The translations under genes were made by a program, and so were the position numbers. Shown one piece after another: positions 10,562-28,815 of a stretch of 36,432 bases of DNA (position 1 is the first letter of the stretch; each line of letters opens with the position of its first letter). This stretch comes from an uncultured Desulfuromonadales bacterium. Lineage in GTDB: Bacteria; Desulfobacterota; Desulfuromonadia; Desulfuromonadales; Geopsychrobacteraceae. The stretch lies in assembly GCA_947259715.1 (NCBI GenBank), contig CAMYNR010000069.1, positions 1 to 36,432 on the forward strand, in the 5' to 3' direction. The notes beneath the pieces are model-generated. The model saw nothing but the letters and a program-made list of their open reading frames with translations, did no database searches and was not told the origin of the DNA.

Positions 10562-10703
10562 TTCTCTCTCCAGGAACCAGGCTCAGATGCCCCATAGCAA
10601 GGGTGTCTGTTGCCTGGATGGTGACAGTAAAGCTCCAGGGATTGGGTTCAAGTGGTCCTGGAGATGGGACATCTGAGCCCGGTTCGCCGATTGGTTGAGA
10701 GAA
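10562..10703. ncRNA. Copy 1 of a two-copy structured intergenic element
   Basis: Nested complementary segments: TTCTCTC/GAGAGAA, GGCTCAGATG/CATCTGAGCC, CTGTTGCC/GGTGACAG, CTCCAGG/CCTGGAG; homologous to 27456-27609. Confidence 0.6.
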
Positions 10704-10866
10704 GGACGTAGCAGATTGCCTTATTTGTATTCATATCACCATTGAGCACCGAAGCAAGCGGTCCGCAGGCGAATTCATTTCAGGTTGCACCTTCTGTGGT
10801 CCCCGCTCCTTAAGCAGATTGAAAAACAGCCATTCTGACCTATAATTTCGCTTGCCTGACCCTCGG

Positions 10867-27403: not shown

Positions 27404-27455
27404 ACGCTTTACCTTTCCCTATTTTTTACAAATCTGCTGTCAGGGTTATTTGGAT

Positions 27456-27609
27456 ATGCACTTTACTCCGCTGGCCTGGGACCGGGCTCAGATGTTCCTT
27501 TGCAAGGGTGTCCGTCGCCTGGATGGCGACAATCCCCAGGGATGGGTTCATACGGCCCTGGAAATGGGAAAGCTGAGCCCGTTTCGCCGATTGGTTGAGC
27601 GAAGTGCAT
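27456..27609. ncRNA. Copy 2 of the two-copy structured intergenic element
   Basis: Nested complementary segments: ATGCACTT/AAGTGCAT, GGGCTCAG/CTGAGCCC, GTCGCC/GGCGAC, CCAGGG/CCCTGG; homologous to 10562-10703. Confidence 0.6.
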
Positions 27610-27621
27610 AGCCAGATAGGA

Positions 27622-28815
27622 TTAATACATGCGGGTCAAAGCAGAGGCCGGAACAAAATCGATCTGCTGCTGCTTCAACCAGGCCAGTTCCTGGCGGAAC
27701 GCTTCGATTGTCTCCGGATAGGGGTGGCAGATGGCGATCACCTCGCCTTTGACATCGGAAAGGCGCACCATCTCACGGATCTGGCGACGAATGTAGCCGA
27801 CATCCTCCTCGTTATCGAGGAAGATGTTGCGCACTGCCGTCGGCAGGCCCATTTTTCTGGCTTCATCATAGGCAACCGAGCCGGCGATGGTTTTGCTGTC
27901 AATAAAGAACTGGCCGCTCTGCCGCAGTTCATCGAGCACAATCCGCATCGGCTCCCTCTCTTCGGTATATCTTGAGCCCATGTGGTTATTTCCACCGACC
28001 GCCCCTGGGACAAGATCGATGTAGCGGCGTACCAGCTGGCGGATTTCCTGCTCCGTCTGCCCAAGCAGGAGGGCATTGGGACCCGGGTTTGCTCTTGGGT
28101 AACTTTTCGGCTGCATCGGCATATGGATCATATATTCGCGACCTGCCCGCTGCAGCAGTCTGGCCGCCCGGGTCGCTTTTTCACTCTCCGGCAGGATTGC
28201 CGGGGTGATCAACAGGTCAAGCTCAAGCAGGGTTTCGAAGGTTTTCAGTGAGCGCCCCATATCATCCATGATGACCGCTATCTTTGGCCTGGAGCTCTTG
28301 ACTTCCAGCGGGACCCGGTAACGAAGATTGAGGCGAAGCTCACCTTGCCAAAAAAGATTGATCTGTCCCTTGCGCGGTTGCAGGTCCAGCTGGACAGGGG
28401 CCCCGGTAGCAGTCAACTGCGAGGCGAGGTCGGTCAACCGGTCGGCCGGGGGGTAATCGCCGAACACCTGCAAACGCTGAACCTCCCCCTCGTTGGAAAG
28501 TTTTTTCCAGCCTTCTGAATCCCGACCGCTGAGCAGCTCATTTTCGATCACCTGGAGAATCTGTTGATAGCCATAGATCGGTTGTTTCGGCGCTGGCTCA
28601 GGTTGGATTTGCGGAAGCGGCTTTTCCTCGTAAGCAAATTCGCCCCGCGGCGAAAAATAGCTTTCCCGCAAAACCACAAGGGTAAACAGGCATACCGCAA
28701 CGAAAACCAGCAAAAAAATGCTGGCGAGCAGGATTTTCAGTTTTTGGCCGGTCAACAATGCCGGCTTTTTGCGAATGTTCTTTTTCCTGACGGAAGATTT
28801 CTTTTTGGCAGTCAT
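27622..28815 (-). CDS. Divergent polysaccharide deacetylase family protein (YibQ-like)
   Basis: PKIAVIMDDMGRSLKTFETLLELDLLITPAILPES...EYMIHMPMQPKSYP...GNNHMGSRYTEE. Confidence 0.9.
   Translation of the reverse strand: MTAKKKSSVRKKNIRKKPALLTGQKLKILLASIFLLVFVAVCLFTLVVLRESYFSPRGEFAYEEKPLPQIQPEPAPKQPIYGYQQILQVIENELLSGRDSEGWKKLSNEGEVQRLQVFGDYPPADRLTDLASQLTATGAPVQLDLQPRKGQINLFWQGELRLNLRYRVPLEVKSSRPKIAVIMDDMGRSLKTFETLLELDLLITPAILPESEKATRAARLLQRAGREYMIHMPMQPKSYPRANPGPNALLLGQTEQEIRQLVRRYIDLVPGAVGGNNHMGSRYTEEREPMRIVLDELRQSGQFFIDSKTIAGSVAYDEARKMGLPTAVRNIFLDNEEDVGYIRRQIREMVRLSDVKGEVIAICHPYPETIEAFRQELAWLKQQQIDFVPASALTRMY

Follow-up and report, generated by a model that had tools for sequence, protein, structure and literature searches.

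A family of MITEs with a structured, RNA-like core in Desulfuromonadales, and its possible role as a CsrA decoy

The window analysed here, a stretch of 36,432 nt, derives from a Geopsychrobacteraceae-like Desulfuromonadales MAG (assembly of 2.6 Mb, 77% complete) and contains two copies of a related element (Table 1). On its right, copy 2 directly abuts a divergent minus-strand gene for a polysaccharide deacetylase (27622-28815) at its stop codon, and the genes around copy 1 are unrelated to those around copy 2. Homology between 10562-10703 and 27456-27609 had been proposed in an earlier note from blocks of shared sequence, and is confirmed by a local score of 137 against a maximum of 25 in 300 shuffles, with the listed blocks common to both regions. 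Both copies also fold, as had been suggested, into structures more stable than those of shuffled sequences (z = -4.4 and -4.8). With regard to their boundaries, those of copy 2 are revised to 27449-27616, and copy 1 is without its left end. Both are probably decayed insertions, as copy 1 lacks this end and has an insertion within a loop, and part of the junction linker is missing from copy 2.

Table 1. Positions of the two element copies and their parts in the window
Feature	Position	Strand	Basis or remark
Copy 2, whole element (type A MITE)	27449..27616	+ (= GGA/core strand)	90% identity to 174-nt consensus, full length
Left flank of copy 2, half of degenerate 8-bp target-site duplication (CAGGGTTA)	27441..27448	.	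6/8 match with 27617-27624
Right flank of copy 2, other half of duplication (TAGGATTA)	27617..27624	.	Overlaps stop codon of minus-strand gene 27622-28815
Copy 2, left terminal inverted repeat (TTTGGATATGCACTTTACTC)	27449..27468	+	Pattern match, 3 mismatches
Copy 2, right terminal inverted repeat (TCTGGCTATGCACTTCGCTC on minus strand)	27597..27616	-	Exact pattern match
Copy 2, RNA-like core	27484..27580	+	Model R1, 78.7 bits; 4 nt of inter-hairpin junction linker missing
Copy 2, hairpin H1, GUCGCC-UGGAU-GGCGAC, GGA in loop	27514..27530	+	Family structure and fold
Copy 2, hairpin H2, CCC-AGGGAU-GGG, GGA in hexaloop	27535..27546	+	Family structure
Copy 1, element remnant, left terminal repeat lost, right one diverged	10562..10716	+	Alignment to consensus; right boundary by eye
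Copy 1, RNA-like core	10579..10680	+	Model R1, 86.5 bits
Copy 1, hairpin H1, UGUUGCC-UGGAU-GGUGACA, GGA in loop	10608..10626	+	Family structure and fold
Copy 1, hairpin H2, UCC-AGGGAUU-GGG, one extra U in loop	10634..10646	+	Family structure, alignment

The pair had been described as a two-copy element, but it belongs to a dispersed family. From 40 copies recovered by sequence search a covariance model (R1) was constructed, with which 17 copies of the core are detected in the host assembly at 76 bits or more; short forms that keep the element's ends but lack the core are also present there. A search of this kind had been suggested in the earlier note, and it matches the core in 47 of 136 Desulfuromonadales genomes, often with at least 29 copies in each; a comparison of the window with Rfam, likewise suggested, returned nothing at gathering thresholds. 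Exact matches to a 26-base probe come from Geopsychrobacter and uncultured Desulfuromonadales MAGs, and within genera the distribution of the core is patchy. Samples of the class and phylum outside the order contain no R1 match, and plasmid and viral collections no match to the element. Because repeats break assemblies, the copy numbers given here are underestimates. Contig ends fall within element copies at the start of G000:C41, at the end of G000:C209 and in several G005 and G008 contigs. The element is not described in the literature searched, which covered Desulfuromonadales repeats, Geobacter MITEs, CsrA or IS66 together with MITEs, and CsrA sponges in transposable elements; an earlier, unnamed record may exist among the multicopy sequences of Pelobacter carbinolicus.

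The elements are approximately 137-172 bp in length, have no coding capacity, and carry terminal inverted repeats of two types, including those of copy 2, although some copies possess no recognisable ends. Most relatives harbour type B ends (GTAACTATTCAGC...GCTGAATAGTTAC), and the host genome type A ends (TCTGG[A/C]TATGCACTTCGCTC and inverse). Type B elements are flanked by an exact 8-bp direct repeat in 17 of 51 cases and by one matching at 7/8 in 10 more (0.1% each in controls with mismatched flanks), and these repeats are never longer than 8 bp; for type A, 10 of 18 flanks match at 6-8 of 8 positions, against about 4% in controls. Ends of type B also bound a 1.7-kb IS66-family transposon in G009 (L252), and those of type A a 1.0-kb IS1595-family transposon in G003 (L283), both families being known for 8-bp duplications. 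The terminal repeats, the 8-bp duplications and the matching transposase-bearing transposons together identify the elements, almost certainly, as MITEs, with IS-type ends and 8-bp target-site duplications that the first reading of the window had missed. Much of the inverted-repeat symmetry is consequently that of transposon ends, and the outer stem once proposed, TTCTCTC/GAGAGAA in one copy and ATGCACTT/AAGTGCAT in the other, compares non-homologous parts of the terminal repeat. No transposase-bearing transposon with these ends was found in the host genome. For the type B ends, a single IS66 transposon was found altogether, several type B genomes having none.

In common with the MITEs of IS66 and IS1595, the elements share their ends with transposase-bearing IS, are flanked by 8-bp target-site duplications and are non-coding; unlike them, their interior is a conserved structured-RNA module and no remnant of an IS internal deletion, and the same module occurs with both end sets. 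REP/BIME elements mobilised by RAYTs are similarly multicopy intergenic palindromes, but RAYT-type genes, where they exist, do not have these ends around them, and the 8-bp duplications point to DDE transposition. A RAYT/REP origin was rejected after a search of 12 loci with Y1 transposase genes, none of which is flanked on both sides by the ends in question.

Type A elements of about 45-70 bp with no core (L022, L023/L142, L030 and L151) include some with near-perfect 8-bp duplications, and a further short core-less copy, L021, has a duplication at 7/8; the core is thus dispensable for movement. When compared with other host-genome copies, L016 (G000:C81:1653-1824) has a core whose outer arms point the opposite way, as if recombination between the arms had flipped the core. 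At L154 (1501-2233, G000:C143), a lone type A end lies beside two small overlapping ORFs, candidates for a RelE/HigB-type toxin and an HTH antitoxin on the basis of their resemblance.

Nested within these ends is a core of some 100 nt (about 77 nt plus an arm of about 12 bp on each side), in which a long stem closes a three-way junction with two hairpins, H1 and H2, each with GGA in its loop. Across the family, both members have changed in 27 of 37 pairs (169 cells, against 45 in shuffles), a signal that is lost when the pairing is slid. The junction linkers are near-invariant, and GGA is retained in 100 of 101 H1 loops and in 100 of 101 H2 loops whilst the neighbouring loop positions vary, the H2 loop reading ANGGAN in nearly all copies. 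The 174-nt consensus folds with -117.8 kcal/mol (z -12.2). Between the window copies themselves, helices had been thought to change in step; placed on the family structure, however, the pair displays 0 compensatory double changes, with 21 identical pairs, 5 single changes that keep pairing, and a loss of pairing through 8 single changes and 1 double change. The hairpin CTCCAGG/CCTGGAG is likewise an alternative pairing, the conserved hairpin being CCC-AGGGAU-GGG. What survives of the proposal of a functional RNA is therefore its core as a family trait, which draws on family-wide covariation, a GU:AC asymmetry in other genomes and conservation at orthologous sites, and not on any covariation between the window copies.

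A palindrome constrained solely as double-stranded DNA is expected to have no asymmetry between GU pairs and AC mismatches. On the core strand, the core helices of 100 copies contain 156 GU pairs against 20 AC mismatches; the ratio is 32:8 in BLAST-found copies from relatives and 50:13 when counted in relatives as distinct variants within genomes (p=3e-6), the copies from relatives being mostly top-scoring matches, which can favour GU over AC. The outer arms, which lie outside the model, show no such asymmetry (12:7 and 24:29), and this contrast counters an initial suspicion that the covariation stemmed wholly from the transposon arms. As a single-stranded DNA intermediate could also yield it, the asymmetry is support for RNA rather than proof. 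In the host genome the count is 16:14, and 7:5 among its eight best-scoring copies, so that this strand asymmetry is absent and the copies there look freed from constraint, or to be decaying relics. In relatives, the core is very probably a structured RNA under selection.

The rival explanation that fares best, albeit an unlikely one, is that of a purely selfish MITE, its whole palindrome, including the core, being kept for transposition or for a DNA-hairpin host factor, and with no RNA function. Whilst the terminal repeats, duplications (that of the core-less L021 included) and matching transposons are all in keeping with this, as are the random orientation of copies described below and the even GU:AC count of the host genome, it does not readily explain why the same core sequence is found under two unrelated end sets and in end-less copies at orthologous loci, nor how core-less copies moved without it. 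The excess of GU over AC in the core strand and not in the outer arms, and an independent similarity to the RNA family RF01731, also speak against it.

With regard to genomic context, 112 copies were analysed for which both neighbours could be placed; by crude gene calling, 111 of these occupy intergenic or nearly intergenic positions, and one lies inside a reading frame. Relative to the adjacent genes there is no preferred orientation (both genes sense 34, both antisense 39, divergent 23, convergent 16). The distance to gene ends is a few tens of bases, with a median of 30 bp for 3' ends, and some copies occupy orthologous loci in different species. At L084/L085 the arms have changed with compensation and the core is nearly identical; at L059/L226 and L090/L190 the arms differ and the core is flipped relative to the conserved flanks, either by in-place inversion or by a second insertion. 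L103 (G006) and L111 (G004) represent a conserved copy, antisense and just before the ATG of a hisG-like reading frame, with arms compensated between the two species.

The closeness to 3' ends, together with the very stable fold of the consensus, would suit a cis-acting structured RNA that has no dealings with CsrA and serves its own transcript as a 3'-end stabiliser, a processing site or an attenuator. We consider this quite improbable, since a simple stabilising hairpin needs no invariant GGA loops or junction linkers, and the orientation of copies is random. The latter also led us to discard regulation of the downstream gene in cis, by a leader or riboswitch, a role that the three-way junction with conserved unpaired linkers and the placement of some copies upstream of genes (e.g. 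the hisG-like frame in G004 and G006) might bring to mind, but that is most improbable given that the hisG-like gene is preceded by copies in antisense orientation, that two orthologous copies are flipped, and that the genes flanking the two window copies are unrelated to each other.

As to what a selected RNA might do, the paired GGA-in-loop hairpins fit the CsrA motif, as found in CsrA-sequestering RNAs. TwoAYGGAY RNA (Rfam RF01731; Weinberg et al. 2010, PMC2864571), a predicted CsrA binder according to PMC4333381, belongs to the same Rfam clan as CsrB (CL00106). The RF01731 model, which derives from other organisms, has matches in 8 of 18 tested genomes, with 28-46 each in G049, G014, G012, G028 and G021; its best score, 42.2 bits, lies below the gathering score of 43, which is reached in none of the 18, and membership of RF01731 is therefore not claimed. 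There is no match in 14 control genomes or in four tested R1-negative genomes (G013, G018, G039 and G055), nor does the model match the host genome or certain further R1-positive genomes, among them G009 and G116. Both RNAs possess two adjacent hairpins with GGA hexaloops, a CAAG linker after the first, GCGUC after the second, and an enclosing stem; window-type copies, however, carry CAGGGAUG and the pentaloop UGGAU in place of AYGGAY, strict AYGGAY loops being confined to part of the family and absent from the window copies. Whilst TwoAYGGAY is known from gammaproteobacteria, Clostridiales and the gut, the element described here is from Desulfuromonadales and is carried by MITEs in many copies per genome, the comparison with RF01731 members covering RNA sequence and structure. 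Paired GGA motifs in hairpin loops are also shared with CsrB/RsmY/RsmZ (RF00018 and relatives), but CsrB is a single, longer RNA gene with many sites, whereas the present element, a predicted RNA, offers two sites in each of many dispersed copies. The earlier guess at CsrA/RsmA binding is thus strengthened by sub-threshold similarity to TwoAYGGAY in dozens of copies and by the clan shared with CsrB, the binding itself being a prediction.

Amongst genomes with a completeness of 90% or more and a contamination of 5% or less, the core is carried by 23 of 50 with csrA versus 6 of 34 lacking it (p=0.01, hand-counted and with genomes taken as independent of phylogeny). No csrA match was obtained in two copy-bearing genomes, G025 (11 copies, 92% complete) and G091 (21 copies, 92%), and none was found in the 77%-complete assembly of the host. 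Overall, we lean slightly towards CsrA as the predicted ligand of the core.

The explanation put forward is a non-autonomous MITE in which a structured-RNA core is nested within terminal inverted repeats, and whose ends would be mobilised by DDE transposases acting in trans, of the IS1595 type in the host genome and of the IS66 type in most relatives. If transcribed, the core strand would fold into the long stem, three-way junction and two hairpins with ANGGAN/NGGAN loops, and the two GGA hairpins may then bind a CsrA dimer, titrating CsrA from its mRNA targets in the manner of CsrB/RsmZ and, as has been predicted, of TwoAYGGAY RNAs. This last step is suggested by the motif, by the sub-threshold likeness to TwoAYGGAY and by the co-occurrence with csrA. 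Random orientation counts against a decoy, in that about half of the copies would be off the sense strand of either neighbour's transcript; a decoy acting in trans would tolerate random positions, as long as the core strand is transcribed from a sufficient number of copies. A CsrA-type decoy RNA that is carried by MITEs, functional in relatives and probably a relic in the host genome has, in our estimation, an even chance of being correct.

A broader reading, which is rather doubtful, is that of an order-wide network of transposon-borne CsrA decoys, with one module in two unrelated IS families and tens of copies per genome. Were it true, the decoys would set the level of free CsrA, and individual copies could be turned on or off when their core inverts in place. 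The sRNAs that regulate CsrA are often unidentified, and in Geobacter there are predictions only (PMC11934962); an abundant, conserved and csrA-associated RNA module is thus a concrete candidate for CsrA antagonism in deltaproteobacteria. If borne out, the family would offer a clear example of a structured regulatory RNA borne by MITEs and common to two IS families, and mobile DNA could retune a global regulator through the copy number of its decoys.
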